From assembly GCF_003054225.1 (NCBI RefSeq), contig NZ_QBKQ01000003.1:682001-746000 (forward strand): a DNA stretch of 64,000 nucleotides, written 5' to 3'. The stretch is from Christiangramia gaetbulicola (GTDB taxonomy: Bacteria > Bacteroidota > Bacteroidia > Flavobacteriales > Flavobacteriaceae). A program made the position numbers and the translations under genes. Shown in pieces: positions 28,059 through 57,256 of this stretch. How positions within the stretch are numbered: position 1 is the first letter of the stretch; each line of letters starts with the position of its first letter. The notes under the pieces were generated by a model. That model saw nothing but the letters and a program-made list of their open reading frames with translations, was not told the DNA's origin and did not search any database.

Positions 28059-30020
28059 ATGAAAAATTTCAGAATTCAACAGATTCTTATTGTATTTCTG
28101 GCAGGGCTTGTTTTCTCCTGTAGTAAGGATGACCAAGTGGAGCCAGATAATTTGATCAGCGAGAATGTCGCTGTAGTTCATTTAGGGCCAATTTTAAATG
28201 AATTTACGAACCAACAAACCAGGCAATCCTCAGATGGGATTCCCCAGTGTAGTGAAGAAGCTCCAGGTTTTGCGCAGATCTCTCTAACCTATGGAGATGC
28301 GGAAACCCCAGTGGATGTAATTGTTGAGATATTAGAAGACGAAAATGGATTGTTTACAGCCTATGACGAGGCCCTTGAAATTCCAATCCCAAGTGGATCC
28401 ACCACAGTTTCAGTGACTTTAAATGAGTTCCTGGTCTGGACCAATGTAGATGATGCACCCGGTGAGATCATATGGGCGGCACCTAAAGACGATAGTGATT
28501 TTGCCGACTTTGTAGATAATCCTTTGCCATTTAGCTGGGAATTACGCGCAGGATCTAAAACCTATATTAACGTTGATGTTCTTTGTTTTGATGATAGAAT
28601 GGTAAACTTATTCGGATATCAATTCTTTGACATTAACCCGGAAGTTATCTATGAACTTTGCTTTTTTGCAAATTATTGTTCAGATGCCGGTAGACATTAT
28701 ACGGCTAATTATAGTCTGGATTTATATTATGGTATTTCTTCGAATGGAACTCCATTATATATGGGTGAAATTCCTGTAACGGGAGAAGATGGTGAATTTT
28801 ATGCAGATCCACTTTGCCTGGCGATCCCGGGACCTCAAAATGATGAGGCAGATGATGAACCATATTTATACTATGAGGTCACTCTTCTGGACTGGGAAGG
28901 TAACTATGGAGATGCCAATGGACAAATGATAAGTGGAACATGGAGCTGGAACGATATATCAGGATTATTGAATGATGATGGTGAAACTTCTGAGTATTTC
29001 CATGCCTTCATTAATTGTGATGATGATGGCACAAGTGGTCCGATCGATTCTGATGGAGATGGGGTCCCAGATCCTGAAGATAACTGTCCAAATATAGCCA
29101 ATCCAGATCAGGCAGATGAAGATGGAAATGGTGTTGGAGATGCCTGTGAACCGGTTGAAGGTGATGACGATGGAGATGGAGTGCCTAATGAAATCGATGA
29201 GTGCCCAGATACAGATCCTGGAGTTCTGGTAGATGAGGTAGGTTGTGAAAGCATACAGGTGCCAGGAAGAGATATTGTTGTATTAAATGACATCAACATA
29301 TTTGATAATAATGCCATGGCAGATCCAGATAACGTGAGGTTTGTGCAGAACCTCGTAAATTATACAACTTCAGGTATTAGAAATGATAGCGACGTTGTAC
29401 AGATTGACCGGGGCCGAAATTCAAAATGTTTTGGTACTGGAGAATGTAATGAATCCCAATGGGCTACATTAGAATCAGTAATGTCTGGTGAAGGTTTTAC
29501 CGTAGAAACTATTCTTTCTACCTCAGGATCATTAACAAGTATTCCGGGTAATGTGAAAGTAATATTTTTGGTAAATCCTCTTGTACAATATACGGTTGCA
29601 GAAATAAATACTTTAAAACAATTCGCATCTGAAGGTGGAAGGATCGTGTTTGTAGGTGAATATGATACATATTATGGGCCTGGAATTGCGCTGGAAAATC
29701 AGTTCCTGTTGAATATGGGAGCCGTTCTATTTAATAGCGGAGGTGCTCTTGACTGTAGTTATACTGTGCTTCCTGAGACCTCGAACAGAAACCATCCAAT
29801 TATGGCTGGAGTGGGAGATCTAACTATTGCCTGCGCTTCTGTTATAGAGCCGGGAGAAGGAGATTTCCCTCTGTTCTATGATACGACCAATACCTCTGTT
29901 CTGGGAGGTGTTGCGAAAATTGATACCGCACCAATAAGTGTATTAAAACGAGTATCGAATTCTAAATATAGAGAAGTAAATTACGATCAGTCGAATTCTG
30001 CATCGGCATCAGGTCGTTAA
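28059..30020 (+). CDS. Six-cysteine-domain surface lipoprotein with TSP3 repeats and a C-terminal Rossmann-like domain
   Basis: A 653-residue lipoprotein: lipid Cys21 in VFSC, then SKDD, an acidic patch that fits the Bacteroidota lipoprotein surface-export signal. An upstream in-frame ATG at 28017 is rejected because the signal peptide starts at 28059. Residues ~45-325 form the family N-terminal domain with six conserved cysteines ([37 protein letters not shown]). Residues ~329-400 carry calcium-type thrombospondin-3 repeats (DSDGDGVPDPEDNCP). Residues ~405-640 look like an alternating alpha/beta domain (VIFLVNPL, GGRIVFVGEYD), similar to DUF4350/amidotransferase-like folds. It is closest to the next gene. 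The function is unknown. Confidence 0.8.
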   Translation: MKNFRIQQILIVFLAGLVFSCSKDDQVEPDNLISENVAVVHLGPILNEFTNQQTRQSSDGIPQCSEEAPGFAQISLTYGDAETPVDVIVEILEDENGLFTAYDEALEIPIPSGSTTVSVTLNEFLVWTNVDDAPGEIIWAAPKDDSDFADFVDNPLPFSWELRAGSKTYINVDVLCFDDRMVNLFGYQFFDINPEVIYELCFFANYCSDAGRHYTANYSLDLYYGISSNGTPLYMGEIPVTGEDGEFYADPLCLAIPGPQNDEADDEPYLYYEVTLLDWEGNYGDANGQMISGTWSWNDISGLLNDDGETSEYFHAFINCDDDGTSGPIDSDGDGVPDPEDNCPNIANPDQADEDGNGVGDACEPVEGDDDGDGVPNEIDECPDTDPGVLVDEVGCESIQVPGRDIVVLNDINIFDNNAMADPDNVRFVQNLVNYTTSGIRNDSDVVQIDRGRNSKCFGTGECNESQWATLESVMSGEGFTVETILSTSGSLTSIPGNVKVIFLVNPLVQYTVAEINTLKQFASEGGRIVFVGEYDTYYGPGIALENQFLLNMGAVLFNSGGALDCSYTVLPETSNRNHPIMAGVGDLTIACASVIEPGEGDFPLFYDTTNTSVLGGVAKIDTAPISVLKRVSNSKYREVNYDQSNSASASGR

Positions 30021-30040
30021 GATCTAAATGATTTTTAAAA

Positions 30041-30067
30041 GCAAAGCCGCTATTTTAGCGGCTTTGC
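30041..30067 (+). terminator. Hairpin after the first family lipoprotein
   Basis: The stem GCAAAGCCGC / GCGGCTTTGC with a seven-base loop is followed by an A/T-rich stretch without a strong T-run. It may be a terminator or an mRNA-end hairpin. Confidence 0.6.
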
Positions 30068-30339
30068 TAATTTATATGCCTAAGTTCCGTTATAAATATT
30101 TTACTCATAAGAGTTATTAAAAATCAGGGTATTCACCTATTATTTTTTTCTATTGATTCTTATACTTTTGGAAATATCTTCGAAGATTTAGCCCTTCCTT
30201 AAATCTGCAAATCAGACCTACTTCCTCCCGCATTGGTTTATATACCCTACACTACCCCCTAATAGATCTTTATACAAATTCCTTTAAATAGGAATGGTGT
30301 AGTATTAGGTAATAACCAAAAATCAAAAATTTTATTATT
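30068..30339 (+). promoter_or_regulatory. Long leader region of the second family lipoprotein
   Basis: Non-coding. It holds GGGTATTCACCTA (30127-30139, 11 of 13 matches to the 27872 box) and TACTTTTG (30163-30170, matching TAnnTTTG). If that is the promoter, the untranslated leader is about 165 bases. TACACTACCCCCTAAT (30248-30263) and GGTGTAGTATTAGGT (30296-30310) could pair loosely. Just before the ATG is TAATAACCAAAAAT, related to the leaders of the other family members. Confidence 0.4.
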
Positions 30340-32838
30340 ATGAAATTCTATTCAAGATACATTGCCCTACTGGCGATGTTCCTGATGTTTTTTAACTCTT
30401 GTAGTACAGATGAAAGTACTCCAGTGAGTGAAGTTGATGACAATGTTGGTATAATTTTTTTAGGGCCTATCCTTAAAGATTTTGCTGACAATGAGAATGT
30501 AAGGCAGGCATTGGATGATATTCCATCCTGTTCTAATGAAGCTGCGGCTTTTGCACAGATATCCCTAACCTACGGAGAAGATGAAACACCCGTAGATATC
30601 GTAGTGGAACTTCTGGAAGACGAAAATGGCCTATTCACAGCTTATGATGAAGCCTTGGAAATCCCAATTCCAACTGGTTTAAATACAGTATCAGTAACTT
30701 TAAATGAGTTTTTAGTCTGGACCAATGTAGATGATGCTCCTGGTGAGATTATCTGGGCAGCACCTAAAGCTGACAGCGATTATGCAGGTTATGTTGAAAA
30801 CCCTTTACCCTTCAGTTGGGATCTTAGGGCAGGTTCTAAAACCTATACCAATGTAGATGTTTTATGTTTTGATGACAGATTGGTTAACCTTTACGGCTAC
30901 CAGTTTTTCGACATCAATCCAGAAATAATCTATGAAGTATGCTTCTTCGCTAATTATTGTAGTGAATCTGGAAGGCATTATACCGCAAATTATAGTCTGG
31001 ATATATATTATGGATCAGATGCTCAGGGTGTACCGATCTATACGGATGAAGTTCCCGTTACTGGAGATGACGGTGGATTCTTTGCAGAGCCGGTTTGTCT
31101 TGCTATTCCTGGCCCACAAAATGATGAAGATGCCGGCGATCCTTATTTATATTATGAAGCCACTCTTCTGGACTGGGATGATAATTATGGAGAAGCTTCA
31201 GGGGAAACCATTAGCGGAACATGGAGCTGGAATGATATCCAGGCTTTAATGAATGAGGATGGTGAAACTTCTGAATATTTTCATGCCTTTATTAATTGTG
31301 AGGGCGATGACGGAGGAGAGCCTGTAGATACAGATGAAGACGGGATTGATGATCCAGAGGATAATTGTCCAAATGAAGCGAATGCAGATCAGGCTGATGC
31401 TGATGAAGATGGTGTAGGCGATAAATGTGACAATTGTCCTGATAACGCTAATTCAGATCAAGCCGATACAGATCAAGATGGAGTTGGTGATGCTTGTGAG
31501 GAGCAGCCGGAAGATACAGATGGGGATGGTGTAAACGATTCAGAAGATAATTGTCCAGATGAAGCCAATGCAGACCAGGCTGATGCTGATGAAGATAGCA
31601 TAGGCGATGTTTGTGATAATTGTGTTAATACTGCCAACCCAGATCAGGCTGATGCTGATGCGGATGGAGTTGGTGATGCCTGTGAGGAAGAGCCTGAAGA
31701 TTCAGATGAAGATGGCGTTAGCGATAGCGAGGACAACTGTCCCGAAACCGCTAATGCAGATCAGGCTGATGCCGATGAAGATGGAGTAGGCGATAAATGT
31801 GATAATTGTCCAAATACAGCAAATCCAGATCAGACCGATGCTGATGAAGATGGAACCGGCGATGCTTGTGAAGAAGTTGCGCCAGACGATGACGGCGACG
31901 GAACTCCAGATGCGGAGGATAATTGTCCTAACACCGCAAATCCTGATCAGGCAGATACCGACGGCGATGGAATAGGGGACGCTTGTGATAACTGTCCTGA
32001 AACTTCTAATGCAGATCAGGCTGATGAAGATTCCGATGGAGTTGGTGATGCTTGTGAAGAAGCTCCAGATGCAGATAGCGATGGAGTTCCTGATGACGAT
32101 GATAACTGTCCCAATCTTTCTAATCCTGATCAGGCAGATAGTGATCAAGATGGAATTGGTGATGCCTGCGATAATGATGGAACTCCAAGCGATGGTGGAC
32201 CGTTAACAAATGGGGAAAACCATTCAGGGTTTATATCTTTAGGAACTACCGATACCTGGACTTTCTACGCTGACGCAGGAGATTTCGTTCATTTGACTAT
32301 GGCTAGAACATCTGAAAATTTAACTCCGCAGATAAGACTTGTATCCCCTAGTGGTACCCTAATTGGGAATGCGCAGACTAATTTTGCTTCAGTTGAATTA
32401 GTATTGGAAGATGCTCCTGAAAGGGGTACATATAAAGTGATAGCAGGTGACTATGCAGCAAATCATCAGGGAGAATACCTGATTCGACTAGCACAGGCAC
32501 CAAAAAATTACGTTGTTCCAGAAAATGATGAAGGCGGAGAATTAACTAACGGTTCAGATTATTCAGGAAGTATTCCATTAGGAGATCTTGATCAATGGAC
32601 CTTTTCGGTAAGTGAAGGTAATTTCATAACAATTTCAATGGGTAGAACTTCTGGGAATCTTACACCTCAAATTCGGTTAATATCACCCAATGGAGATGTT
32701 GTAGAAATGGCACAAACCAATTTTGGATCAGTAGATTTAATGGTTGAGGAAGCTCCATTAACAGGTACTTACAGGGTAATTGTAGGAGACTACGCTGTCA
32801 ATCATCAAGGCTCATACTTACTAACTGTTACATGGTAA
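30340..32838 (+). CDS. Six-cysteine-domain surface lipoprotein with nine TSP3 repeats and two PPC domains
   Basis: An 832-residue lipoprotein: lipid Cys21 in FNSC followed by STDE. The N-terminal family domain (about residues 45-325) has all six cysteines ([37 protein letters not shown]). Residues ~329-612 hold nine DNCP-type thrombospondin-3 repeats arranged in units of 62 residues; they are strongly acidic and predicted to bind calcium. The C-terminus has two PPC-like beta-sandwich domains (about residues 620-720 and 730-832), each with [10 protein letters not shown]- or [10 protein letters not shown]-type starts and a GDYA(A/V)NHQG end. Nearest relative: the gene at 28059. Probably surface-exposed; partner and role unknown. 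Confidence 0.8.
31360..32174 (+). repeat. Tandem 186-bp coding repeat (TSP3 units)
   Basis: The DNCP codons recur at 31360, 31546, 31732, 31918 and 32101, so the spacing is exactly 186, 186, 186 and 183 bases. Each 62-residue unit holds two TSP3 motifs and an EE(x)PED-type linker. Confidence 0.85.
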
Positions 32839-32881
32839 ATTTATTTTTAGATTAACATATATTCAAATATTAAATTATTTA

Positions 32882-32911
32882 GGCTGTCCAATTTTTTGGA
32901 CAGCTTTTTTT
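32882..32911 (+). terminator. Intrinsic terminator after the second family lipoprotein
   Basis: The stem GCTGTCCA / TGGACAGC with a six-base T loop is followed by seven T. The stem core GCTGTCC is shared with the terminator at 57344. Confidence 0.88.
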
Positions 32912-32981
32912 ATGATCGAAAGAAATATGATAAAGTCGCTAACGGTTTTGTAATTTTACATTCTAACCAATCTTATCAAAA

Positions 32982-33404
32982 ATGACGAAAGAAGAACTTT
33001 TGGAGTTATCCAAAAAGGTATGCAAGAACACCCTGATGGAAACTCTCGAAATAGAATTCACTGAAATTGGAGAAGACTACTTGGTAGCAAAAATGCCTGT
33101 GAATTCCCGTGTACACCAGCCCGATGGGGTTTTACATGGTGGGGCTAGCGTGGCTCTAGCCGAAAGCGTTGGAAGTCTAGCCAGTTATATTTTCTTGGAT
33201 ACCGAGAATTTTTTTGTTCGCGGGATCGAGATCGCTGCTAACCACTTAAAAAGTATCAAGGAGGGATGGGTCTATGCAAAAGCTACTTTTATTCATAAAG
33301 GTAGAACTACCCAATTGTTTGAAATACGAATTACCGATGAGGCGGCGAATCTAATTTCGCTTGTGAAACTTACAACAATCTCACTGCCAAAAGAAAAGAA
33401 ATGA
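32982..33404 (+). CDS. Hotdog-fold thioesterase, probably DHNA-CoA hydrolase
   Basis: A 140-residue PaaI/YdiI-type thioesterase with the hotdog motif VHQPDGVLHGGASVALAESVGS, whose glutamate is the catalytic residue in relatives. It overlaps the start of menF by four bases (ATGA) and precedes menD, so the best assignment is hydrolysis of 1,4-dihydroxy-2-naphthoyl-CoA in menaquinone synthesis. From sequence alone another acyl-CoA substrate is possible. Confidence 0.82.
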   Translation: MTKEELLELSKKVCKNTLMETLEIEFTEIGEDYLVAKMPVNSRVHQPDGVLHGGASVALAESVGSLASYIFLDTENFFVRGIEIAANHLKSIKEGWVYAKATFIHKGRTTQLFEIRITDEAANLISLVKLTTISLPKEKK

Positions 33405-34552
33405 TCGATCAAAAGGATTTTTTTAGAAAGCTAGAGGGAAACTTTGGGGAAAATAAGCCCTGTGTGGCTTATAGCAAACCGGGAGAAAATATTGTGAAGG
33501 CATTATTGCAGCTTGATAATGAGAATTACCAGGTTCAGGACCTTTCTGAAAGCGGATTCGTCTTTGCTCCTTTTGATCCTGAAAATGATTCATATTTGAT
33601 CCCTGCGGAGAAATCTGAAAGATTGGAATTTGATATACAACTGGAAGAGGACGGAGCAATACCTTCCGATGAAGAGAATATCGATTCAGTCGATTTTGAG
33701 TACATGGAAGAGGACCAGAAGAGACATGAAAATTTAGTGCAAAAAGGGATTGATGAAGTAAAGGAAGGTAATTTCAAAAAAGTGGTCTTATCCAGGTCTG
33801 AGCAAGTTGAGGTCCTGGATCCTGATCCAATTAGGATCTTTAAAAAGCTTCTGAAAAAATATCCCAATGCTATGGTCTATCTGTGGTTTCATCCACAAAC
33901 CGGATTTTGGTTTGGAGCAACTCCCGAGACACTGTTGCGAGTAGAAAGGACCAAGTTCAATACCATGGCTCTTGCCGGGACTCAATTATACAAAGGAGAA
34001 ACAGATGTGGAATGGGAAAGTAAGGAGGTAGAGGAGCAGCTTTTCGTGACCGATTATATTCTGGAATCTTTGGAAAACCTTGAAGGGGTTGAGAATATTA
34101 AAACTTCCAGGCCTTATTCGGCCAAGGCAGGTAATCTACTTCATATTTGTACAGATATTTTTGGTTATCTTAAAGATCCTGAAAACCTGAAAGACCTCAT
34201 AGAAACGATTCATCCTACACCTGCGGTTTGTGGCTTGCCCAGACAGGAAGCTCTGGATTTTATTCTTGAAAATGAAGATCATTCCAGGGAATTTTACTCG
34301 GGCTACCTAGGAGAATTGAACCTAAAGACAGAACAGAAAAGGAATTCCAATCAAAGGAATCAGGAGAACCAGCAATTCGCATCTATTTCTAAGCAAACAG
34401 AACTTTTCGTTAATCTAAGGTGTATGAAATTAAAAGATGGGAATGCCCGGATTTATGTTGGAGGAGGGATCACAAAAGATTCCAATGCAGCCGATGAATG
34501 GATGGAAACCGTGAACAAATCGCAAACCATGAAAGCGGTACTTGTTAAATAA
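33401..34552 (+). CDS. menF: Isochorismate synthase
   Basis: Chorismate-binding enzyme that makes isochorismate for menaquinone. Catalytic-domain motifs are GATPETLL, ALAGTQLYKGE, TIHPTPAVCGLPRQEA and the late YVGGGITKDSNA. Its 383 residues fit the short MenF/EntC form. It could in principle serve a siderophore pathway, but the gene is coupled to a thioesterase and followed 50 bp later by menD, which supports menaquinone. Confidence 0.9.
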   Translation: MIDQKDFFRKLEGNFGENKPCVAYSKPGENIVKALLQLDNENYQVQDLSESGFVFAPFDPENDSYLIPAEKSERLEFDIQLEEDGAIPSDEENIDSVDFEYMEEDQKRHENLVQKGIDEVKEGNFKKVVLSRSEQVEVLDPDPIRIFKKLLKKYPNAMVYLWFHPQTGFWFGATPETLLRVERTKFNTMALAGTQLYKGETDVEWESKEVEEQLFVTDYILESLENLEGVENIKTSRPYSAKAGNLLHICTDIFGYLKDPENLKDLIETIHPTPAVCGLPRQEALDFILENEDHSREFYSGYLGELNLKTEQKRNSNQRNQENQQFASISKQTELFVNLRCMKLKDGNARIYVGGGITKDSNAADEWMETVNKSQTMKAVLVK

Positions 34553-34602
34553 GCTCAAAAACGAGCCCTGAAATTACCTGTAAATTGTAATTTTGGGAAT
34601 CT

Positions 34603-36336
34603 ATGAAGTACTCTAAAATTCCGGTTGCCCGCTCGGTTGTTGCTCTTTGCGTGGCAAAAGATATAAAGCATGTGGTGATCTCTCCAGGATCGAGAAATGC
34701 ACCTTTAACCATAGGTTTTACGCATCATGATGAAATAAATGCTTACAGCATAGTAGACGAGCGTTGCGCCGCTTTCTTTGCCCTGGGGATGGCCCAGCAG
34801 CTAAAGAAGCCTGTGGCCCTGGTTTGTACTTCAGGATCGGCATTGCTTAACTATTATCCTGCCATAGCTGAAGCTTTTTACAGTGATATCCCTTTGGTGG
34901 TGATCTCGGCAGACCGACCTGTGGAACGTATAGACATTGGTGACGGACAAACGATAAGGCAGAAAAATGTTTTTGAGAATCATATTTTATATTCCGCAAA
35001 TCTGTATTCTGAACTGGTTTTAGAGAATGAGGCTTTAGATCCAAAATTGCAACAGAAGCAATTCGAAGCTCAAAAGCATAACGAGAGAGAGGTTAACCTG
35101 GCGCTGAATAAAGCAATAGAAGAGAAAGGCCCGGTTCATATAAATGTACCTTTTTATGAGCCATTATATGATACGGTTGAGAATATCGAAGTAAAGCCAC
35201 TGCAGATTTTTCCGGAGATAAAAGAAAGGCATTATTCTGAAAATCAATTAAGCAATTACGCAGAGGAATGGAGCAGGGCGAAAAGGAAAATGGTAATTGT
35301 AGGAGTAGCCCAGCCTGATGCCGTAGAGCAGAAATTTCTTGATCGGCTAGCAAAGGATCCAAGTGTTATTGTTTTAACTGAAACAACTTCAAATCTTCAT
35401 CAGTCTGAGTTTTTTACCCGTATAGATACGCTTATCGGCCCGATCGAAAAAGATGAAAACCGGGCAGAACTTTTCAAAAAATTACAACCGGACATTCTTC
35501 TGACCTTTGGAGGAATGATCGTTTCAAAGAAGATCAAATCCTTTTTAAGGAATCATAATCCTCAGCATCACTGGCATATAGATCCTAAAAAGGCCTACAA
35601 CACTTTCTTTTGCTTGAACAAGCATTTTGAAACCGATGTGAATGCCTTCTTTTCAGAATTCTTACCACTTACAGAAACCGTTGAAAGTGATTACGGTAAG
35701 TTCTGGAAAGAGGTGAAAGGAAAAAGGCAAAAAAGACATGAAGAGTATATGGCCGAGATCCCTTATTCAGATCTCAAGGCTATGCAACAGATCGTACCGG
35801 AAGTTCCAAAGAAATCGATCGTGCATTTCGGGAACAGTTCTACGATAAGATATGCGCAGCTCTTCCAGTGGGATCCAAGTCTAAAGACTTTTTGTAATCG
35901 CGGAACCAGCGGTATAGACGGCAGTGTTTCTACGGCAGTAGGCGCCGCAGCAATTAGCAATGATCCGGTATTAATGATCACCGGGGACCTAAGCTTTTTC
36001 TATGATAGCAATGCTTTATGGAATAATCATATTCCTTCAAATTTCAGAATAGTGGTCCTTAATAATCACGGTGGTGGAATTTTCAGGATACTGCCGGGAA
36101 ATAAGAATTCAGAGAACTTCGATAAGTACTTTGAAACGGTTCACGATATGAAGGCAAAACCTTTATGTGAACTTTATAATTTTGAATATTCCGAAGCAGA
36201 TTCAGAGGAAACCCTGAAGGAAAGCCTGAATGGTTTTTTTGAAAGATCTGAGAAACCTAAGCTGCTGGAGATATTTACTCCCAGGAAATTAAATGATGAA
36301 GTATTGTTGGAATATTTCAATTTTATGAAATCTTAA
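34603..36336 (+). CDS. menD: SEPHCHC synthase
   Basis: Thiamine-diphosphate enzyme that adds a succinic semialdehyde unit from 2-oxoglutarate to isochorismate. The pyrimidine-binding domain starts with VISPGSRNAPLTIGF, including the family hallmark SPGSRNAPL, and the pyrophosphate domain has NRGTSGIDGSVSTAVGAA and TGDLSFFYDSNALWN. Its 577 residues are normal. It is third in the men cluster. Confidence 0.95.
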   Translation: MKYSKIPVARSVVALCVAKDIKHVVISPGSRNAPLTIGFTHHDEINAYSIVDERCAAFFALGMAQQLKKPVALVCTSGSALLNYYPAIAEAFYSDIPLVVISADRPVERIDIGDGQTIRQKNVFENHILYSANLYSELVLENEALDPKLQQKQFEAQKHNEREVNLALNKAIEEKGPVHINVPFYEPLYDTVENIEVKPLQIFPEIKERHYSENQLSNYAEEWSRAKRKMVIVGVAQPDAVEQKFLDRLAKDPSVIVLTETTSNLHQSEFFTRIDTLIGPIEKDENRAELFKKLQPDILLTFGGMIVSKKIKSFLRNHNPQHHWHIDPKKAYNTFFCLNKHFETDVNAFFSEFLPLTETVESDYGKFWKEVKGKRQKRHEEYMAEIPYSDLKAMQQIVPEVPKKSIVHFGNSSTIRYAQLFQWDPSLKTFCNRGTSGIDGSVSTAVGAAAISNDPVLMITGDLSFFYDSNALWNNHIPSNFRIVVLNNHGGGIFRILPGNKNSENFDKYFETVHDMKAKPLCELYNFEYSEADSEETLKESLNGFFERSEKPKLLEIFTPRKLNDEVLLEYFNFMKS

Positions 36337-36404
36337 ACATCGTCTAACACTTCTTAAGAATCATAATTATTATCTTACTTCTCGTTTAACTAAAAAATAG
36401 AATT

Positions 36405-36749
36405 ATGAGTAAACTTGATGAAAAAGTAGGACAATATCTGGATGATCTAAGATCTAAGGTCGGAGAATCTAATCCCGATGTAGATCTTTTAAGAAAAATC
36501 GCTGAATCGTTAGGACCAAGTATATACAACGCTGATGCTGAAACTGTTTCTTCTTCCAGTGAATCTGAAGTTGAGACCGTGAAAAAGAATTTTGTGATGA
36601 AAAAGCTGGGTGTGACTGATGAGGGCAAGGTAAACGAAGCAGTAAACCAGGTGCTTGAAAAATACGGCAAATCAAACAGAAATAAATACAGAGTGGTAGT
36701 TTATTACCTGCTTACCAAACATTTTGGCAAGGAAAGCCTGTATAAATAA
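36405..36749 (+). CDS. DUF2853-family protein
   Basis: A 114-residue soluble, charged, probably helical protein. The end KNFVMKKLGVTDEGKVNEAV...YRVVVYYLLTKHFGKE is characteristic of small DUF2853 proteins, whose function is unknown. It lies between menD and a CvfB-like gene on the same strand and is followed by a terminator-like hairpin. Confidence 0.8.
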   Translation: MSKLDEKVGQYLDDLRSKVGESNPDVDLLRKIAESLGPSIYNADAETVSSSSESEVETVKKNFVMKKLGVTDEGKVNEAVNQVLEKYGKSNRNKYRVVVYYLLTKHFGKESLYK

Positions 36750-36767
36750 TATATAAATGCTTAATAA

Positions 36768-36808
36768 GATCCGTTTTTGGGATATTCCCTTAAACGGATT
36801 TTTTTATT
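36768..36808 (+). terminator. Intrinsic terminator after the DUF2853 gene
   Basis: The stem GATCCGTTT / AAACGGATT flanks a 15-base loop and is followed by seven T. Confidence 0.75.
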
Positions 36809-36848
36809 TGTGATTAAGACTATCTTTGTAAGCTAAAGTTTTTATTAT

Positions 36849-38685: not shown

Positions 38686-38707
38686 ATACAACCTTATTAT
38701 AATTATG

Positions 38708-38738: not shown

Positions 38739-38794
38739 ATTGTTGCTTTTCTGAAATGGAATGAAAACTCTATTTTTACTACAAAATTATAATC

Positions 38795-48807: not shown

Positions 48808-49194
48808 AAATTTTTTCAAGGTGGCAAAGTTACTTATTGTAATTATATATAAAAAGCTATTGGCAATCTACTGATGTTAAGGTTGATGTAATTTTTTGCA
48901 AGAAGCTTTAATTCTATTATAAGAAAGGATGAAATAAGTTGCAAAGAGCAAAAGTTCCTGAAGGTTTTAAAGTCTTAAAATGAACCATTTGGCTCTCTTT
49001 TAACTTATTGAATGTCAGGATAATATTACTTGTTTTTTTTCTCACTAATGGGGGAAATCACCTATATTTGAAACTCCGAGAAACACTTACCCATATCTAT
49101 TTCCTACGAATGCCAGAGACATAACTTTATGTCCATTACGCATGCCCTGTATTTTTAAAAAAGAATATTAATTAGGTTTTAATGTCGTTGGAAG
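48808..49194. promoter_or_regulatory. Divergent intergenic region, uvrA / LuxR-type regulator
   Basis: 387 bp with no gene. The plus-strand side has GGGAAATCACCTA (49052-49064), identical to 27872-27884, overlapping TATATTTG (49063-49070), which fits the -7 consensus TAnnTTTG. A start there gives a leader of about 115 bases. I see nothing distinct on the uvrA side. Confidence 0.4.
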
Positions 49195-50202
49195 ATGGAA
49201 AAAAAACAACTTTTAATTGTTAGCAGGAATCAGGAATTTGTAGAAAAATTGATCGAAGAGTTAAGTGTAAGCTATGAGGTCACTTCAGAGAAATCTATAC
49301 ATGTAGCTTATAATATCGCACTCAATCTTTTACCGGATATTATATTCTTTGATAAGATATCTTATACTAAAGCTTCAGATTTCAGGAATTTAAAGAATTT
49401 TAAATCCACCCATTTCCTTACTAAGAGTTTTTTAATGGTGCAGCTTAAAGACAAAGAAAAAGCTAGCCTAAGTAAAAGATATAAGTCTATTATAGACGAA
49501 TACGTGCCAGAAAAGATGACGGTAGACCAAATAGCGTCAAAAATTCTTAAGAACAACAAATCAAAGAGTTTTAATTACTGGCATGATTGCTTTATGGGGC
49601 TCTTTAATCTCATGTCCCAACCAATCGTTCTATTGCAGCAGAATAATATTATCGCCATGAACGATTCTTTCAAGAAGACCTTCAGGCTGGAGAACACCGA
49701 TGGACTTAAATTGACAGATTTCGTCAATATCGAGAATAAGGCTAAAGTGAAAACCAGTCTTAGAAATTTTGCCAGAGGTAAACATATGAAAGCGGTAACT
49801 ACTACTTCTCTACTTATTAATGACGATAAGCTTAGGAATGCCAAGATCAGCTTTTCCAAATTGAGCAGGAATATTACAGATCAATTTATCATGATGATAG
49901 ATTTTTCTGGTGAAGAGCACGTTATGGACGAAAGCATTGGAAGTCATGCAGATCAGGTGGAGAAATGTTTTAAGGAGAATAGTGAGCTAGCCGAATTCAG
50001 TTTCACTAAACGGGAGAAGGAGATCATCTCTCTTTTATGTAAAGGTTATAAAACCAAGGAGATATCAGATGCTTTATTCATTTCACCTAAAACCATCGAA
50101 AAACATAGATCTAATATTATAAAAAGAACCAATTCTGAAACTATACTGGAGAGTATTATCTATGCCATTAACCATAACCTGGTGGATCTCCCTAAATCCT
50201 AG
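49195..50202 (+). CDS. LuxR-type transcriptional regulator with degenerate receiver and PAS-like domains
   Basis: A 335-residue regulator. Residues 1-120 follow a receiver layout: LLIVSRN in place of the usual acidic IVDDD, then PDIIFFDK with Asp53 at the phosphorylation position. The missing acidic pair argues against normal phosphorylation. Residues ~135-225 look PAS-like (QPIVLLQQNNIIAMNDSFKKTF). The C-terminal ~270-330 is a clear LuxR helix-turn-helix: FTKREKEIISLLCKG, TKEISDALFISPKTIEKHRSN. It lies 406 bp upstream of four family lipoproteins, on the same strand, and shares an upstream box with another family member, so it is the best candidate to control them. Confidence 0.82.
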   Translation: MEKKQLLIVSRNQEFVEKLIEELSVSYEVTSEKSIHVAYNIALNLLPDIIFFDKISYTKASDFRNLKNFKSTHFLTKSFLMVQLKDKEKASLSKRYKSIIDEYVPEKMTVDQIASKILKNNKSKSFNYWHDCFMGLFNLMSQPIVLLQQNNIIAMNDSFKKTFRLENTDGLKLTDFVNIENKAKVKTSLRNFARGKHMKAVTTTSLLINDDKLRNAKISFSKLSRNITDQFIMMIDFSGEEHVMDESIGSHADQVEKCFKENSELAEFSFTKREKEIISLLCKGYKTKEISDALFISPKTIEKHRSNIIKRTNSETILESIIYAINHNLVDLPKS

Positions 50203-50607
50203 GTAAAACCCAATTATTTGTTAATTAGGGATTTATTGGAATATTATACGGGTTTTCCCCCATGATGATACTAAGACTTGTTTCATACATTTACTTTGAT
50301 TCTGATAAAAGGTGATAACCTTAAATCTTTTATCTGAAGTTATCCTTACAAACCCCCCAAATCACAAAAGTTTATTGACCTGTTATACTATTTCCTTATA
50401 GGGAATAACTGTATGTATATTTATTAACCATTCTAAATATTATTAACCAATACGAACTTAAATGAAAAAATAAATTACTCCCACCAAATCTAGCCTTCCC
50501 CGAATCTTTGTTGTTGATCCTAAGATCCTTTTTGACTTCCAGTCGAATAGGGTAGTGACATAGTTTATTAACCATTCTAAATATTTATTAACCAAAACTT
50601 TATCATT
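50203..50607 (+). promoter_or_regulatory. Regulatory region before the lipoprotein array, with a solitary duplicate leader
   Basis: 405 bp without a gene. GGGTTTTCCCCCA (50250-50262) loosely resembles the boxes at 30127 and 49052. TTATTAACCATTCTAAATAT occurs at 50421-50440 and again at 50565-50584 just before the next gene; both are followed by TATTAACC. The first copy is followed by ATG AAA AAA TAA (50462-50473), a start cut off after three codons, as if the leader of a lost family member remained. Confidence 0.5.
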
Positions 50608-52005
50608 ATGAAAAACATTAAAAGTTTTCTGGCGGTATGCGCGATTTTTACATTGGTGCTCGCTGGATGTAGTAAAGATGAGCCCGGCACTAATGACGGT
50701 CCGGCATCATCTGAAACCGCTATATTGCAACTAGGACCAATTTTAAATTCTCCTGAGACCAGAGCGGCGATTAGACAACAAGAGGGACAGGATATTCCAG
50801 ACTGTTCAGATGAAGCTCCTGGTTTTGCTCAGTTATCCATTATTTATGGACCAGATGACACCGTAAAGGAGAATATTATTATTCCTATTCTTGAAGATGA
50901 TCAGGGATTATTCACTGCATATTCTGAAGAATTGGAACTTCCAATTCCTGCCGGAGAGACTACTGTTTCAGTAACCTTAACACAATTTGTTGTTTGGACC
51001 AATGATGGAGGAAGCCCGGGAGAAGTTATCTGGGTTGCACCTATTGAAGGCAGCGAATATGCAGATTTTGTAGACCAGCCAGTTGGAGAGAATTTCACCT
51101 TCGACCTGCGCGCTGGATCTAAGAATTACATAAATGTAGATGTTATCTGTTATGATGACCGTGATGTAAATCTTTATGGTTATCAATTCTTTACCATTAC
51201 TCCAATCCCGTTAATCAAGTTTTGTATTTTCGGAAACTACTGTACTCCAGAAGGAAGACACTTTGTAGCTTCTTATAGTGTGAATGTATGGGAAAGTAAT
51301 GATGGACAAAAAGGAGATCCTATATATACAGGTTTACAAAATGTAGTTGAAGGAGAAGGTGGAGATGCCTATTCAGATCCATTATGTTTCTTCTTGCCAG
51401 ACAGGCTTGATGTAGATGATAATGAAGAAGAATATTATGTAGAGATCACCTTATTATCTGATACCCCTGGTTACAACGGTCCAGACATCGTATTTGCTGA
51501 AGGACCAATAACCGTAACAGAGATCAAGTTATTCTTTGGGGAAGATGGTACTTTAGATTATTACCATTTCCAATACGGTTGTGATGATGGTGTGCCACCT
51601 CCATTTGGACAGCCAGAAACCAAAAGATATAAAGCCTGTATCAAGTATCTTGATGATTCAGATGAAGTGGCAGGTTTTGCTTACCTATCATTAGAAGGAT
51701 CTGTGCTTCAGGCTGTGACTTCTGTCTTTGGTCTTAAAGTAGGAGAAATGCATCCACAGCATATTCATGAGAATGCTTCTTGTGGAGACTACGGGCCAGT
51801 AGCAGTTTCGCTAGATTATAATGAAGGAGGATTCCCGGTAGCTCAGCTTTTCAATAATGTGTCATTCCTTAATTATGCCGAAACCATTCCAGGATTCTTT
51901 TTACAGGATCTAGAAGATAGAACTGTGGTTATTCACGGTAAGGATGTAAACGGAGAATACGTAGCGACTGAACCAGTTGCCTGCGGTGAATTCGAGGAAT
52001 ATTAA
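50608..52005 (+). CDS. Six-cysteine-domain lipoprotein with a SodC-like C-terminal domain
   Basis: A 465-residue lipoprotein: lipid Cys21 in LAGC followed by SKDE. The family N-terminal domain (about residues 45-330) has all six cysteines, the last in QYGCDDG, and is the most divergent of the six. It has no TSP3 repeats. The C-terminal ~125 residues resemble the Cu,Zn-superoxide dismutase fold: HPQHIHE (His382, 385, 387), a disulfide-type cysteine in ENASCGD (Cys392), VVIHGKD (His443) and a final VACGEF (Cys459), like the ACG near the SodC end. The zinc-loop histidines appear absent, so dismutase activity is doubtful; a CHRD-like domain is an alternative. Confidence 0.75.
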   Translation: MKNIKSFLAVCAIFTLVLAGCSKDEPGTNDGPASSETAILQLGPILNSPETRAAIRQQEGQDIPDCSDEAPGFAQLSIIYGPDDTVKENIIIPILEDDQGLFTAYSEELELPIPAGETTVSVTLTQFVVWTNDGGSPGEVIWVAPIEGSEYADFVDQPVGENFTFDLRAGSKNYINVDVICYDDRDVNLYGYQFFTITPIPLIKFCIFGNYCTPEGRHFVASYSVNVWESNDGQKGDPIYTGLQNVVEGEGGDAYSDPLCFFLPDRLDVDDNEEEYYVEITLLSDTPGYNGPDIVFAEGPITVTEIKLFFGEDGTLDYYHFQYGCDDGVPPPFGQPETKRYKACIKYLDDSDEVAGFAYLSLEGSVLQAVTSVFGLKVGEMHPQHIHENASCGDYGPVAVSLDYNEGGFPVAQLFNNVSFLNYAETIPGFFLQDLEDRTVVIHGKDVNGEYVATEPVACGEFEEY

Positions 52006-52016
52006 AAAAGATCAAG

Positions 52017-52048
52017 ATCCCGAACCCTTCCAAGGGTTTGGGATTTTT
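52017..52048 (+). terminator. Hairpin/terminator after the first array gene
   Basis: ATCCCgAACCCTT / AAGGGTTtGGGAT with a two-base loop, followed by five T. In a 74-bp gap, it may attenuate rather than end transcription. Confidence 0.75.
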
Positions 52049-52079
52049 AATAATAATTAACCATTCTTAAATATTTAAT

Positions 52080-54053
52080 ATGAAAACAATTAAAAGTTAT
52101 TTGGCCTTTTTTGCCATGTTTCTGTTACTATTTTCTTCCTGTACCAAGGATGAAACTGTTCAGGGAAATGGTGAAATATCCAATGATGTAGCAAGCCTAT
52201 ATCTTGGGCCAGTTTTACAGGATTTATCAAATCAAAACAGACAACAGGAACAGGATATTCCTGAATGCTCAACCGATGATCCGGCTTATGCTCAGATCAC
52301 ATTGACTTATGGAGAGTCTAATACAGAGGTTTCCGTAGTCGTTGAGATCTTACAGGATGATCAGGGACTTTTTACTGCATACGATGATGAGCTAGAAATT
52401 CCAATCCCTTCAGGAGAAACAAGCGTTTCTGTAACACTTACAGATTTTGTTGTTTGGAATGAGGTAGATGGTGCGCCTGGAATGCCTATTTGGGTAGCTC
52501 CTAAAGAAGGAAGTGAATACGCGAAATTCGTATCAGATCCACTCTCTAATACTTTTAGTTTAAGAGCAGGATCAAAGAATTATGTGAATGTAGACGTAAT
52601 ATGTTTTGATGACAGAGATGTAAACCTTTACGGATACCTATTCTTTGATATTAATCCGGTTCCACTTTCTGAATTATGCATTTTCGCAAACTATTGTATA
52701 ACTCCGGGTGGTCGTGACTATGTTGCGAATTACAGCCTGGACCTATATGCATACTCTGGTGATGAAGAAGAAGGTGATCCTATTACAGATGCAGGTCTTT
52801 ATACTGCGTTATATAGCGATAAAATGCCAATGACCGGTCTGGATGGTGAAACATTCTATGCAGATCCACTTTGTGTAGCAATTCCAAAAGGAGATGATGA
52901 TAATGGTGATGTTCCTTATTTATACTGGGAAGTTACTCTGGAAGACTGGGATGATTATTATGGAGAAGCACCAAACCTTACCCTTTCAGGATATCTTACC
53001 TGGAATGAGGTTAAGGCTTACCTGGACAAAGATGGAAATGATTCTACGGTAGATTATATCCACCTGTTCTTCAATTGTGGAGGAGATCCTTGTGAAGAAG
53101 GACCAGATACAGATGGAGACGGTGTAAATGATGTTTGTGATAACTGTCCTCTAGCAGAAAATGCAGATCAGGCAGATTCAGATGGTGATGGAGTAGGAGA
53201 TGCGTGTGATGAATGTGTTGATGAATTCGGATCACCAGACTTCTTTGGTTGCCCAGATGATCCATGTATTCAGGGACCAGACACTGACGGAGATGGTATC
53301 AATGATGTTTGTGATGTTTGTGAAGATGGAGATGATACTATAGATACAGACGGAGATGGTGTGCCAGATGCTTGTGACAATTGTCCTCAAGTTGCTAACC
53401 CAGACCAGGAAGATACAGATGGAGATGGAGTAGGTGATGCCTGTGACGAATGTGTTGATGAATTTGGTAACCCAGATAATTTCGGTTGTCCAGATGATCC
53501 TTGCGTTGGAGAAGACTCAGATGGAGATGGCGTTGCTGATATTTGTGATGTTTGTGAAGATGGAGATGACAATGTAGATGAGGATGGTAATGGAATTCCA
53601 GATGATTGTGAAGATCCTGATGGTGAGGGAGCATGTGAAACTGCTTTTATGTTCGGAGATACTCCAATCAACTCTTTTAGTAATGTAAACAGATGGGGTT
53701 GGGCTGAATTTTTCGATGACGATGATGGTAACCCTCAAACCTTTAAAATTTGGGCAGGTGCTGGACAAAATGATACTTCTAAAGGTACTCATGTTGGTGA
53801 TGCAACCATAACCTTAAATGGTGATGGTGATGTAGAACTGGACATAGATATCTTCAGTGGCTATTCATTTGACGAGCTTCATGTAAACCTTTCTGAAGCT
53901 CAACCTTCAGGTAACGTTGCTAAGGCTCCAGGACAATACAACAGAAATGGAGAAGTAAGTGCAGATGTAACAGAATACACTTTTGATTTCAACAATTCAG
54001 ATGGTGATTTCTGGATCATAGTACACGCCGTTACTTGTGGTATAGATGATTAA
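52080..54053 (+). CDS. Six-cysteine-domain lipoprotein with TSP3 repeats and a GAGQND-type C-terminal domain
   Basis: A 657-residue lipoprotein: lipid Cys21 in FSSC followed by TKDE. The family domain has the six cysteines (PECSTDD, VDVICFDDR, SELCIFANYC, DPLCVAI, FFNCGG). Residues ~342-512 carry TSP3 repeats with unusual CVDEFGxPDxFGCPDDPC inserts, duplicated as a 79-residue unit. The C-terminal ~140 residues (from CETAFMFGD) include WGWAEFF, WAGAGQND and a beta-rich end; similar segments occur in other bacterial surface proteins, with unknown function. Its N-terminal half is nearly identical to that of the gene at 55265. The gene follows the previous one by 74 bp. Confidence 0.78.
   Translation: MKTIKSYLAFFAMFLLLFSSCTKDETVQGNGEISNDVASLYLGPVLQDLSNQNRQQEQDIPECSTDDPAYAQITLTYGESNTEVSVVVEILQDDQGLFTAYDDELEIPIPSGETSVSVTLTDFVVWNEVDGAPGMPIWVAPKEGSEYAKFVSDPLSNTFSLRAGSKNYVNVDVICFDDRDVNLYGYLFFDINPVPLSELCIFANYCITPGGRDYVANYSLDLYAYSGDEEEGDPITDAGLYTALYSDKMPMTGLDGETFYADPLCVAIPKGDDDNGDVPYLYWEVTLEDWDDYYGEAPNLTLSGYLTWNEVKAYLDKDGNDSTVDYIHLFFNCGGDPCEEGPDTDGDGVNDVCDNCPLAENADQADSDGDGVGDACDECVDEFGSPDFFGCPDDPCIQGPDTDGDGINDVCDVCEDGDDTIDTDGDGVPDACDNCPQVANPDQEDTDGDGVGDACDECVDEFGNPDNFGCPDDPCVGEDSDGDGVADICDVCEDGDDNVDEDGNGIPDDCEDPDGEGACETAFMFGDTPINSFSNVNRWGWAEFFDDDDGNPQTFKIWAGAGQNDTSKGTHVGDATITLNGDGDVELDIDIFSGYSFDELHVNLSEAQPSGNVAKAPGQYNRNGEVSADVTEYTFDFNNSDGDFWIIVHAVTCGIDD
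53107..53580 (+). repeat. Tandem 237-bp coding duplication
   Basis: Matching landmarks recur 237 bases apart: TGTGAtAAcTGTCCT at 53136 and 53373, and TGTGTTGATGAATT at 53214 and 53451. The unit is 79 residues and in frame. Confidence 0.85.
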
Positions 54054-54064
54054 TTAAATATAAT

Positions 54065-54088
54065 AACCGGCTGCTAAGCCAGCCGGTT
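54065..54088 (+). terminator. Hairpin after the second array gene
   Basis: The stem AACCGGCT / AGCCGGTT with an eight-base loop is followed by TAAACTTTT; the T-run is weak. Confidence 0.55.
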
Positions 54089-54155
54089 TAAACTTTTATA
54101 TCCTCTTGAAAAGAGATATATGAACCATTCTAAATATTAACTAAAACTTTTTACA

Positions 54156-55181
54156 ATGAAAAAATTTAAATTTTATTTGGCGCTAGTCGCCGTGTGCTCT
54201 TTACTTCTAACTTCTTGTAGTAAAGACGAGGTCGCACCTCAGGATTCAATTGGAGATAATGTTGCAAGCCTAAGCCTTGGGCCAGTATTGCAATCTATGG
54301 ATTTAAACAGACAACAGATTACTCCAGATGATACTCCGGAGTGTTCAGACCTGCCACCTGCCTTTGCTCAAATAAGGATAGTATATGGAGATGATGATAC
54401 AGAGGTAGTTACAATCGTGAGAATTCTTTCTGATGATCAGGGACTGTTTACAGAATATAGTGATGATCTTGAAATCCCAATCCCAAGTGGAGAAACTTCA
54501 GTATCTGTAACCTTAACAGACTTCGTAGTATGGAGTGACGATGGTGGAGCTCCTGGAGAAGTAATCTGGGTTGCACCTAAAGATGGTAGCGAATACGATA
54601 TGTTCGTGGATGATCCTTTAGAAAATACTTTCTCTCTTAGAGCAGGATCTAAAAATTACGTGAACGTAGATGTTATTTGTTTTGATGATCGTGAAGTAAA
54701 TCTTTATGGATATCAATTCTTCGACATTACACCAGTTCCACTTTATGAGTTCTGTATTTTCGCTAACTACTGTAGCGATGCCGGAAGACACTATACTGCT
54801 AACTATACATTCTCTTTATATGAGTATGATGGTAACAGAGAAGATGGAAAAGGAGATATGATTTATTCAAATCTTACTCCTACTACTGGAAATGATGATG
54901 GAACTTACTGGGCAGATCCACTTTGTGTAGCTGTACCTGGACCAGGTGACTTAGATTCAGATGTACCTTATTTGGTATTTGAAGCTACTGTAACCGACTG
55001 GCCTGGATACTACATTGCAGAAGGAGATGAGATGGTAATTACTACTCTTCTTACCTGGGATGTTATAGAATCTCTATTGGATAGAGATGGTGATGACGAA
55101 ACCACCAATTACTGGCATATCTTCTTCAATTGTGATGAAGAAGATGGTCCAAGTGGTTTTGTTCCCGCTGTTCCTCTATAG
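54156..55181 (+). CDS. Six-cysteine-domain lipoprotein, domain-only member
   Basis: A 341-residue lipoprotein: lipid Cys21 in LTSC followed by SKDE. It consists of the family domain alone, with the six cysteines (PECSDLP, VDVICFDDR, YEFCIFANYC, DPLCVAV, FFNCDEE), and ends 13 residues later. It lacks TSP3 repeats and any C-terminal module and therefore defines the boundaries of the domain (about residues 45-330). The second half is very similar to that of the next gene. A leader GAACCATTCTAAATATTAA precedes it. Confidence 0.78.
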   Translation: MKKFKFYLALVAVCSLLLTSCSKDEVAPQDSIGDNVASLSLGPVLQSMDLNRQQITPDDTPECSDLPPAFAQIRIVYGDDDTEVVTIVRILSDDQGLFTEYSDDLEIPIPSGETSVSVTLTDFVVWSDDGGAPGEVIWVAPKDGSEYDMFVDDPLENTFSLRAGSKNYVNVDVICFDDREVNLYGYQFFDITPVPLYEFCIFANYCSDAGRHYTANYTFSLYEYDGNREDGKGDMIYSNLTPTTGNDDGTYWADPLCVAVPGPGDLDSDVPYLVFEATVTDWPGYYIAEGDEMVITTLLTWDVIESLLDRDGDDETTNYWHIFFNCDEEDGPSGFVPAVPL

Positions 55182-55195
55182 TAATAGTCATAAGA

Positions 55196-55220
55196 TCTAA
55201 CCCGGAAATCCCGGGTTAGA
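55196..55220 (+). terminator. Hairpin/terminator after the third array gene
   Basis: A perfect ten-base stem, TCTAACCCGG / CCGGGTTAGA, with a five-base loop, is followed by TTCTTTT. Confidence 0.65.
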
Positions 55221-55264
55221 TTCTTTTCTAAGACTATTTACCAATTAATCCAAAACCAAAAATT

Positions 55265-57256
55265 ATGAGATTATTACAAAAATATATGGCATTTTTTGCC
55301 CTCATTGCTTTGTTAGTTACCTCTTGTTCTAAAGATGAAACAGCAACAGTTAATAGAGATGTGGCAGATAATGCAGCGAGTATTTATTTTGGGCCTGTTC
55401 TGGCAGATCTTGGAAGTCAGTTTAATCGACAACAAGAACAGGACATTCCGGAATGTTCTACAGACGATCCGGCATACGCCCAGATCACACTAACCTATGG
55501 GGAAGCTAATACCGAAGTTTCGGTAGTAGTAGAAATTTTACAAGATGACCAGGGGCTTTTCACTGCATATGATGATGAACTGGAAATCCCAATCCCTTCA
55601 GGAGAAACTACGGTATCTGTTACTTTAACCGATTTTGTGGTTTGGAATGATGTAGATGGAGCACCAGGTATGCCTATTTGGGTAGCACCAAAAGAAGGTA
55701 GTGAATACGCTCAGTTCGTTTCAGATCCACTTTCAAATACATTTTCTTTAAGAGCAGGATCAAAGAATTATGTCAATGTAGATGTGATTTGTTTTGATGA
55801 CCGCGATGTTAATCTTTACGGATATCAATTCTTCGATATTAATCCTGTTCCTTTATATGAATTCTGTGTATTTGCAAACTATTGTACAGATGCGGGAAGA
55901 CATTATACTGCAGATTATACGTTTGCATTATATGAATATGATGGAAACAGAGAAGATGGAAAAGGAGATATGATCTATAGCAGTTTAAGTCCTGAAACAG
56001 GAATGGATGATGGCACTTATTGGGCAGACCCACTTTGTGTTACTATTCCAGGACCTGGTGACTTAGCTTCAGATGTACCTTACCTTGTATTCGAAGCAAC
56101 ATTATCAGACTGGCCAGGTTACTATACTGCAGAAGATGATGATGAATCTGTAATTACAAAAACCATTTCCTGGGATATGATCCAAATGCTGTTTGACGAG
56201 GATGGAAATGATGAAACTACAGAATACTATCATATTTTCTTTAACTGCGCAGATGATGATGGCCCTGTGGAATGTGATCTTAACGATCCTGACGCAGACT
56301 GCGATAATGACGGAATCCCTAATGGTGAAGATAATTGTCCACAAGTTTCAAATCAAGATCAGGCAGATTTAGATGGTGATGATATTGGAGACGTGTGTGA
56401 TGAAGATCGGGATGGAGATGGAATCGATAATGATTCTGATCCTTGCCCAGATGATCCAAACGATGACTGTGTAGATGACTGTGCAGATCGTGGTGGAGAT
56501 TCAGACAGCGATGGTGTTTGTGACGATGATGATAATTGTCCTAATACTGCAAATCCAGATCAGGCAGATCTAGATGGTGACAATATTGGAGATGCATGTG
56601 ATGAAGACCGGGATGGAGATGGAGTCGATAATGGCTCAGATCCATGTCCAGATGATCCTAATGACAATTGTGTTGACGAATGTGCAAACAGTGGAGGTGA
56701 TACCGATGGGGATGGTATTTGTGATGACGATGACAACTGTCCTAGTGTTGCTAACGCAGATCAGGCCGATTTTGATCAAGACGGAATTGGAGATGTTTGT
56801 GATCCAGATATAGATAATGATGGAGTTCCTAATGATCAGGACGATTGTGATTTCGAAGTTCCCGTTGTTGATGAGGATGGTGATGGTTGCGAAGATGAAG
56901 CGGGAAGTGATTGCGAGTGGACCATATCTGAACCTGGAGCCAATTGCTTTAGAGCTACATTAAATGGCGAAGGAGACTCATTTTTGGAAATTACTCTTGA
57001 TACAGGTGTTCCTTTATTAGAGGAGGGTGAGATTGTGGCTGCAGGTACCTTTGGAATTACTTTGACCGGTAATGGTCTTGAGTATAACTTCGATACAGGT
57101 ACTGCTACTGTTCCTCAATATAATATTCAGGTAACAGATTCATCTGGTGGAGTTATCTCTTGTTCAGACCAAGATGATGATAATAATGTAGTAGAAGGAT
57201 CCTTCACATATCCTATCTATGTGAGAGTTGCGGCCAATATTTGTGAGCCCAACTAA
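55265..57256 (+). CDS. Six-cysteine-domain lipoprotein with TSP3 repeats and unknown C-terminal domain
   Basis: A 663-residue lipoprotein: lipid Cys21 in VTSC followed by SKDE, then the family domain with six cysteines (PECSTDD, VDVICFDDR, YEFCVFANYC, DPLCVTI, FFNCADD). Residues up to about 187 nearly equal those of the gene at 52080, while residues ~195-330 match the gene at 54156, so it is a mosaic. Residues ~340-545 are TSP3 repeats in 67-residue units with PCPDDPND inserts. The C-terminal ~110 residues (from DCEWTISEPG) are beta-rich, have cysteines at both ends, and match nothing I know. It is last in the array and is followed by a strong terminator. Confidence 0.78.
   Translation: MRLLQKYMAFFALIALLVTSCSKDETATVNRDVADNAASIYFGPVLADLGSQFNRQQEQDIPECSTDDPAYAQITLTYGEANTEVSVVVEILQDDQGLFTAYDDELEIPIPSGETTVSVTLTDFVVWNDVDGAPGMPIWVAPKEGSEYAQFVSDPLSNTFSLRAGSKNYVNVDVICFDDRDVNLYGYQFFDINPVPLYEFCVFANYCTDAGRHYTADYTFALYEYDGNREDGKGDMIYSSLSPETGMDDGTYWADPLCVTIPGPGDLASDVPYLVFEATLSDWPGYYTAEDDDESVITKTISWDMIQMLFDEDGNDETTEYYHIFFNCADDDGPVECDLNDPDADCDNDGIPNGEDNCPQVSNQDQADLDGDDIGDVCDEDRDGDGIDNDSDPCPDDPNDDCVDDCADRGGDSDSDGVCDDDDNCPNTANPDQADLDGDNIGDACDEDRDGDGVDNGSDPCPDDPNDNCVDECANSGGDTDGDGICDDDDNCPSVANADQADFDQDGIGDVCDPDIDNDGVPNDQDDCDFEVPVVDEDGDGCEDEAGSDCEWTISEPGANCFRATLNGEGDSFLEITLDTGVPLLEEGEIVAAGTFGITLTGNGLEYNFDTGTATVPQYNIQVTDSSGGVISCSDQDDDNNVVEGSFTYPIYVRVAANICEPN
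56330..56810 (+). repeat. Tandem 201-bp coding repeat (TSP3 units)
   Basis: GA(T/C)AA(T/C)TGTCC recurs at 56330, 56531 and 56732, an exact spacing of 201 bases (67 residues). The last unit is partial. Confidence 0.85.

Follow-up and report, generated by a model that had tools for sequence, protein, structure and literature searches.

Modular surface lipoproteins are a known kind of protein. PMC5080379 gives C-X-K-(D/E)2-X as the best surface-export signal of Capnocytophaga and SDDFE as the consensus of Flavobacterium johnsoniae, and the cases presented there include a sialidase, a mucinase and SusD-like proteins. Two further described systems come close to the one studied here. The Bacteroidales fimbrillins FimA and Mfa1 are sandwich-domain surface lipoproteins with several subunit types, for which PMC5954841 describes Arg-specific processing and strand exchange. 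The Bacteroides thetaiotaomicron protein BT_0210 (PDB 4ecn) is a solved leucine-rich repeat (LRR) protein, and an InterPro entry joins LRR to the domain DUF4458, as listed in PMC7140858. Our study concerns a 64,000-nucleotide stretch of the Christiangramia gaetbulicola genome (contig NZ_QBKQ01000003.1, positions 682,001 to 746,000; hereafter the window), in which six lipoprotein genes, M1 to M6, share an N-terminal region, the stem, and differ in what follows it, the tail. The family is real, narrowly distributed, modular and partly homologous to an uncharacterised known domain. What is new is the stem, the replacement of tails and a conserved dyad; open-access literature searches returned no publication on this stem family. 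On balance we favour, with moderate confidence, a regulated, modular surface-display system. The members in the window, all on the forward strand, are as follows.

28059 to 30020, forward: M1, lipoprotein of 653 residues with stem, two TSP3 stretches and a DUF4350-like tail (about 29253 to 30017).
30340 to 32838, forward: M2, lipoprotein of 832 residues with stem, ten TSP3 stretches and two PPC-type stretches (about 32248 to 32835).
50608 to 52005, forward: M3, lipoprotein of 465 residues with stem and a tail resembling superoxide dismutase (SOD) and CHRD (51589 to 52002).
52080 to 54053, forward: M4, lipoprotein of 657 residues with stem, TSP3 and a WGW module (53640 to 54050).
54156 to 55181, forward: M5, 341 residues, a stem without tail, with two predicted beta-sandwiches.
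55265 to 57256, forward: M6, lipoprotein of 663 residues with a mosaic stem, TSP3 and a tail of its own.

An earlier note on this DNA had described six genes with a common N-terminal region of about 300 residues, a lipid-bearing cysteine at residue 21 with an acidic (S/T)(K/T)D(D/E) patch behind it, six conserved cysteines, and after the region either nothing, TSP3 repeats or one of five different tails; translations, alignment and Pfam scans agree with this description throughout. In an alignment of N-terminal regions, the shared part is 50-70% identical to the M5 product (54156) across the members. Each of the six has its lipobox cysteine at residue 21, with SKDD, STDE, SKDE or TKDE behind it; for M1 this holds from the ATG at 28059, the open reading frame caller having chosen a TTG at 28017. 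Six further cysteines, C63, C175, C200, C206, C257 and C326 in M5 numbering, are invariant in the six copies.

The same note had read the shared region as one domain without a named family. AlphaFold2 modelling of M5 (58 rows; predicted local distance difference test, pLDDT, 83.8; predicted template-modelling score, pTM, 0.53) gives instead a strand at 36-45 within a beta-rich sandwich, D1, up to about residue 190, and a second beta-rich sandwich, D2, at about 195-326. D2 modelled alone (53 rows) reaches a pLDDT of 89.3 and a pTM of 0.81. On the basis of this model, a single new domain is rejected. The absence of a family name stood for the window members, whose shared region matched nothing in Pfam, NCBIfam or PDB sequences (one PDB row, E 0.38), and gave way for D1, which probably has a remote relative in DUF4458 (PF14660). 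DUF4458 matches 7 of 27 rows of the D1 alignment (best 2.6e-5) and 2 of 58 rows of the stem alignment, all at loose E-values; among full-length relatives, L058 scores 22.7 bits against the Pfam cut-off of 22.4, L047 21.4 and L048 14.6, and none of the window members exceeds that cut-off. The top PDB match of a D1 profile with distant relatives, weak at E 0.076, is 4ecn residues 8-107. Because L058 passes the cut-off, alignment rows match and 4ecn heads the D1 profile search, D1 is probably related, at a distance, to DUF4458 and to the N-terminal part of 4ecn. The window members differ from both in having a D2 rich in cysteines and tails other than LRR. Two relatives from other genera of the Flavobacteriaceae carry a D1-like part in other company, L049 with LRR repeats and L048 with other C-terminal parts, hinting that D1 may be a wider stem module.

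D2 has no match in sequence searches, and a named PDB fold is rejected for it, the best of 530 Foldseek matches having E 0.11 and the best in BFVD E 0.081. Its weak matches include 5-hydroxyisourate hydrolase, transthyretin and CnaB-type pilin domains, with template-modelling (TM) scores of at most 0.44 among the best 50 of the 530. The whole M5 model has six Foldseek matches at E <= 0.001, among them 6fwv, 4ecn (rank 3), SpaA pilin and 3pay. Over the best 50 of 1004 matches, however, the TM score is at most 0.23 when normalised by the query and up to 0.39 when normalised by the target, and the former value means that the whole model has no global fold match.

All seven cysteines are kept in 109 of 112 distinct stems from the window and its relatives, a count of stems passing a coverage filter that dropped L048 and L049, the most distant D1 relatives, which lack the conserved cysteines. 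Of the other three, two are truncated where their locus ends, and L035 has serine at both C200 and C257. This one natural double loss suggests a C200-C257 bond, leaving C206-C326 within D2 and C63-C175 within D1.

Surface location is likely on the strength of the lipoprotein export signal, the acidic patch behind the lipid cysteine fitting the published signal. Window members have K at +3 in five of six cases and D(D/E) at +4/+5 in all six. Together with relatives, 78 of 92 members carry C-x-K-[DE][DE] and 87 of 92 have at least two acidic residues at +2 to +6, two of the 92 being without a visible lipobox. The likeness to the Bacteroidetes surface lipoproteins treated in PMC5080379 lies in C-x-K-(D/E)2 directly at the lipid cysteine. 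The difference lies in the surroundings: a SusC/D-type uptake system is rejected here, with no SusC or SusD family match among the 14 neighbours scanned.

The 92 members comprise 20 with SOD-like, 17 with WGW, 17 with M6-type, seven with MAM-like, seven with 'C3', four with DUF4350-like, three with 'FQDEA', two with PPC and two with FAA-hydrolase (FAH) tails, nine without a tail and four singletons, of which one is truncated. These classes were assigned by similarity and motif, and 'M6-type' is the remainder class; BLAST at E 1e-3 connects 16 of its 17 tails, although leftover TSP3 sequence may account for part of this, and leaves out L032. Within the window, TSP3 (PF02412, cut-off 25 bits) is passed in M1, M2, M4 and M6, PPC exceeds its Pfam cut-off in M2, and DUF4350 scores 30.0 bits with the whole M1 protein and 32.6 bits with its tail alone (cut-off 30.4). 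MAM-like tails score below the Pfam cut-off of the MAM profile. Sixteen of the 20 SOD-like tails were searched, giving Sod_Cu in 11 (best 3.1e-4) and CHRD in four (best 7.9e-4); PQHIH, one C, one H and CG are invariant among them, and PDB SODs were matched only at E 0.04 or worse. The HxH and CG of these tails may correspond to the copper-site HxH and the C-terminal CG of PDB SODs. The usual zinc-site histidines of Cu/Zn SOD seem to be missing from the M3-type tail.

The WGW module belongs to no named family of Pfam or NCBIfam and occurs in 36 of 149 genomes of the family, including several very large proteins. One of these is a 1922-residue protein of the source genome (L105, G000 C3:6300-13500) with many near-identical repeats and a single WGW module. 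The FAA_hydrolase tail of Salegentibacter tibetensis exceeds its Pfam cut-off, and its nearest NCBIfam entries, 2-oxo-3-hexenedioate decarboxylase and hydratases, stay far below theirs. This FAA-hydrolase/hydratase-type module, fused to the stem at L025:8001-9794 and L026:3383-5167, is an odd cargo for a cell surface.

The claim that the C-terminal modules are interchangeable stood in so far as tails can be exchanged, and failed in so far as they are not freely mixed. In eight loci, six of Christiangramia type and two from Salinimicrobium, the array has one member each with a SOD-like, WGW or M6-type tail and one with no tail; eight Salegentibacter loci carry SOD-like, WGW and M6-type in the array. 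L030 departs from these patterns. Tail labels cluster on the stem tree, which requires 21 label changes where shuffled labels require 62.4 and the minimum is 13. Stem histories and tail histories nevertheless differ. In approximately unbiased (AU) tests, for which the stem tree was a quick tree and the groups were named after it had been made, one clade is rejected for the stems of the 20 SOD-tailed (p 1.5e-130) and of the 17 WGW-tailed members (p 3.2e-5). The M6 stem is a mosaic, M4-like up to about residue 207 and M5-like beyond, with informative sites dividing 114:49 (M4-like to M5-like) before residue 207 and 28:101 after it; none of 5000 permutations was as strong. Between two Salegentibacter tibetensis loci, L025 and L038, DNA identity is 90% over a stretch that begins 355 bases upstream and extends to codon ~328, past which the tails are unrelated, FAA-hydrolase-type in L025 and SOD-like in L038. 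Here the whole tail was replaced at the end of the stem, with promoter and stem retained. Across 16 arrays, paralog stems are 55-79% identical in Salinimicrobium and 47-80% in Christiangramia, against 33-46% and 33-54%, respectively, for same-tail stems of other genera; in Salegentibacter there is almost no contrast (43-55% against 34-54%).

The array from M3 to M6 sits in a conserved locus with the following further features.

49195 to 50202, forward: regulator with a GerE/LuxR C-terminal helix-turn-helix and weak PAS matches.
50250 to 50263, forward: dyad GGGG-TTTT-CCCC, GGGTTTTCCCCCAT, probable operator of the lipoprotein array, upstream of M3.
49048 to 49061, reverse: dyad site with two mismatches to GGGTTTTCCCCCAT, about 147 bases upstream of the regulator gene.
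57701 to 58750, forward: astacin (M12A) metalloprotease with a lipoprotein-like start, C-S-D-D.
58986 to 60083, forward: second astacin with a lipoprotein-like start, C-S-E-D-E.

A homologue of the regulator (49-83% identity) precedes the array and one or two astacins follow it in all 15 loci showing uvrA, and also in L030, where no uvrA was seen; the remaining 13 of the 29 related loci show neither. PF01400 (astacin M12A) is over its cut-off in both astacin genes, the source genome has no further astacin, and nine astacins looked at in relatives start C-S-E-D, C-S-D-D or C-S-K-D.

The upstream region of M3 holds the conserved dyad. At two mismatches or fewer, 25 sites occur in the 520,672 bases of the window and the 29 loci, against a mean of 1.65 in mononucleotide shuffles (20 runs) and 5.2 in dinucleotide shuffles (range 2-10, 10 runs), for loci that were picked for family genes and a pattern that was picked after sites were seen. 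Twenty-three of them lie less than 600 bases upstream of a family gene, a zone making up 10.4% of the bases, and two lie upstream of the regulator. Over 24 genomes of the genus, RGGGWTTTCCCCYAT occurs 35 times, against once for the reversed control, and 14 of the 16 GGGG-type sites are 329-404 bases before a family gene. The dyad is thus a probable operator of the lipoprotein array, one that the product of 49195 may bind. The source genome has seven sites at one mismatch or fewer (control 1), two in the window and three inside reading frames; the others lie 48 bases before a lipoprotein gene (C3:439379, L111) and between the gene of a secreted-type protein and another (C2:64820, L109). A second repeated element, TTAACCATTC(TAAAT), stands ahead of the start codon in several members as well as in relatives, and is found in the window at 28036, 50424, 50568, 52057 and 54123.

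In the surface-display reading, each protein would be lipid-anchored and carried to the cell surface through its acidic export signal. The constant stem, with its DUF4458-like D1 and its D2 loosely like transthyretin and CnaB, would probably be locked by three disulfides and would hold the tail off the membrane, via TSP3 repeats in four of the six members, and the tails (SOD/CHRD-like, PPC, DUF4350-like, WGW and others) would do the specific work, probably extracellular binding or chemistry. The array 50608-57256 would probably be transcribed under the PAS/LuxR regulator via the dyad, the adjoining astacins are candidate processing or shedding proteases, and recombination mixes stems and swaps tails.

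Several observations weigh against this reading. Same-tail stems from different species of one genus (means 63-73, 72-83 and 86-92%) are mostly closer than the paralogs of one genome, so that mixing is of genus age and not within single genomes, and in Salegentibacter the identity of paralogs (means 45-52%) barely exceeds that of same-tail stems compared with Christiangramia (means 42-48%). At best, stems were homogenised long ago, and the same picture would arise from repeated duplication combined with tail capture. The SOD similarity of the M3 tail is weak (Sod_Cu E 0.097, 13.5 bits against a cut-off of 28.9). As for the dyad, all 19 AGGG-type sites are near no family gene, a near site of the exact pattern is present in only 14 of the 23 genus genomes with family genes, and at two mismatches the dyad is absent from M1 and M2 in the window and from 10 of the 29 loci, including L022 and L029 (of the same locus type), L038 and the M1-type loci. 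Finally, the astacins of several relatives carry only one acid after K.

A more ambitious form of the surface-display reading, which we put forward tentatively, would have a lineage-specific surface toolkit with one PAS/LuxR regulator and its own dyad operator. The stems of its lipoproteins would bind one another or a shared partner on the outer surface, so that a fixed set of distinct tails is presented jointly; further tails, including enzyme-type modules such as an FAA-hydrolase, would recombine in at the stem end, leaving promoter and anchor untouched. If true, Gram-negative bacteria would have a plug-in display platform of natural origin. For the two-part stem there is now an outline of its structure, a disulfide map open to testing and a probable address at the surface, along with a conserved locus and a candidate for its operator; the natural tail replacement at a fixed place marks where evolution attached cargo to such a stem, and by way of the dyad the targets of the regulator can be tested directly.

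Could the stem instead be a stalk only, the proteins acting independently and the within-genus similarity of stems coming from neutral recombination or repeated tandem duplication? We regard this as unlikely, if still a serious contender. Tandem copies do recombine, as in M6, stems follow tails within a genus, and the N-terminal part of 4ecn, to which D1 is probably related, may itself be no more than a stalk. A spacer should, however, require less conservation than the 17 invariant and 18 nearly invariant stem positions found across 58 diverse rows, G210-R211-H212 and H321 among them, and it sits poorly with the persistence of a stem-only protein in eight arrays, six of Christiangramia type and two from Salinimicrobium.

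That the stems polymerise or co-assemble after N-terminal proteolysis, as Bacteroidales fimbriae do, with tails as decoration and an astacin as maturation protease, strikes us as improbable. The protease gene does adjoin the array, behind the predicted strand 36-45 comes a loop (49-54) modelled with low confidence, where most of the rows shown have a basic residue, and the weak Foldseek matches include Gram-positive pilins and the Bacteroides cell-adhesion proteins 3pay, 3liu and 4k4k, which we take to be FimA-like. Fimbrillin membership is rejected, however, on the low TM scores given above and the lack of a fimbrillin family match over the stem; Mfa_like_1 is found in none of 12 genus genomes searched, and large C-terminal tails fit badly with a C-terminal donor strand. 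The NF038041 matches (E 0.015 and 0.0026) fall on the signal peptide and strand-A region (residues 4-61 and 2-40) and stay far below the cut-off. The window members also differ from fimbrillins in their six conserved cysteines and large, varied tails.

Outer-membrane lipoproteins can face the periplasm, where disulfides form, but a periplasm-facing role in envelope maintenance is very improbable given the export signal in most members and the WGW module shared with the 1922-residue protein, whose C-terminus, judged by eye, looks like a type IX secretion system sorting domain.

The lipoprotein family is confined to few genomes. The 29 related loci come from Christiangramia, Salegentibacter and Salinimicrobium, one of them (L028, two rows) sitting in a record labelled as a Methanohalobium metagenome-assembled genome, which we took as a binning error. 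The stem family was found at E <= 1e-6 in 11 of 397 Flavobacteriaceae genomes (7 of 237 genera) in a survey scoring only five candidates per genome, and in 23 of 24 genomes of the genus; D1 alone was found in the source genome and in one other among 295 genomes of the class. The source genome has two more members outside the window (C5:47366 and C1:660723) and a ninth, weak and interrupted match. The best-matching named relative for the M5 product comes from Christiangramia lutea (81% identity). An M1/M2-type gene lies between a hydrolase gene and chorismate-binding/TPP-enzyme genes, presumably menaquinone genes, in L015, L016 and L024, and L017 has these neighbours arranged in another order.

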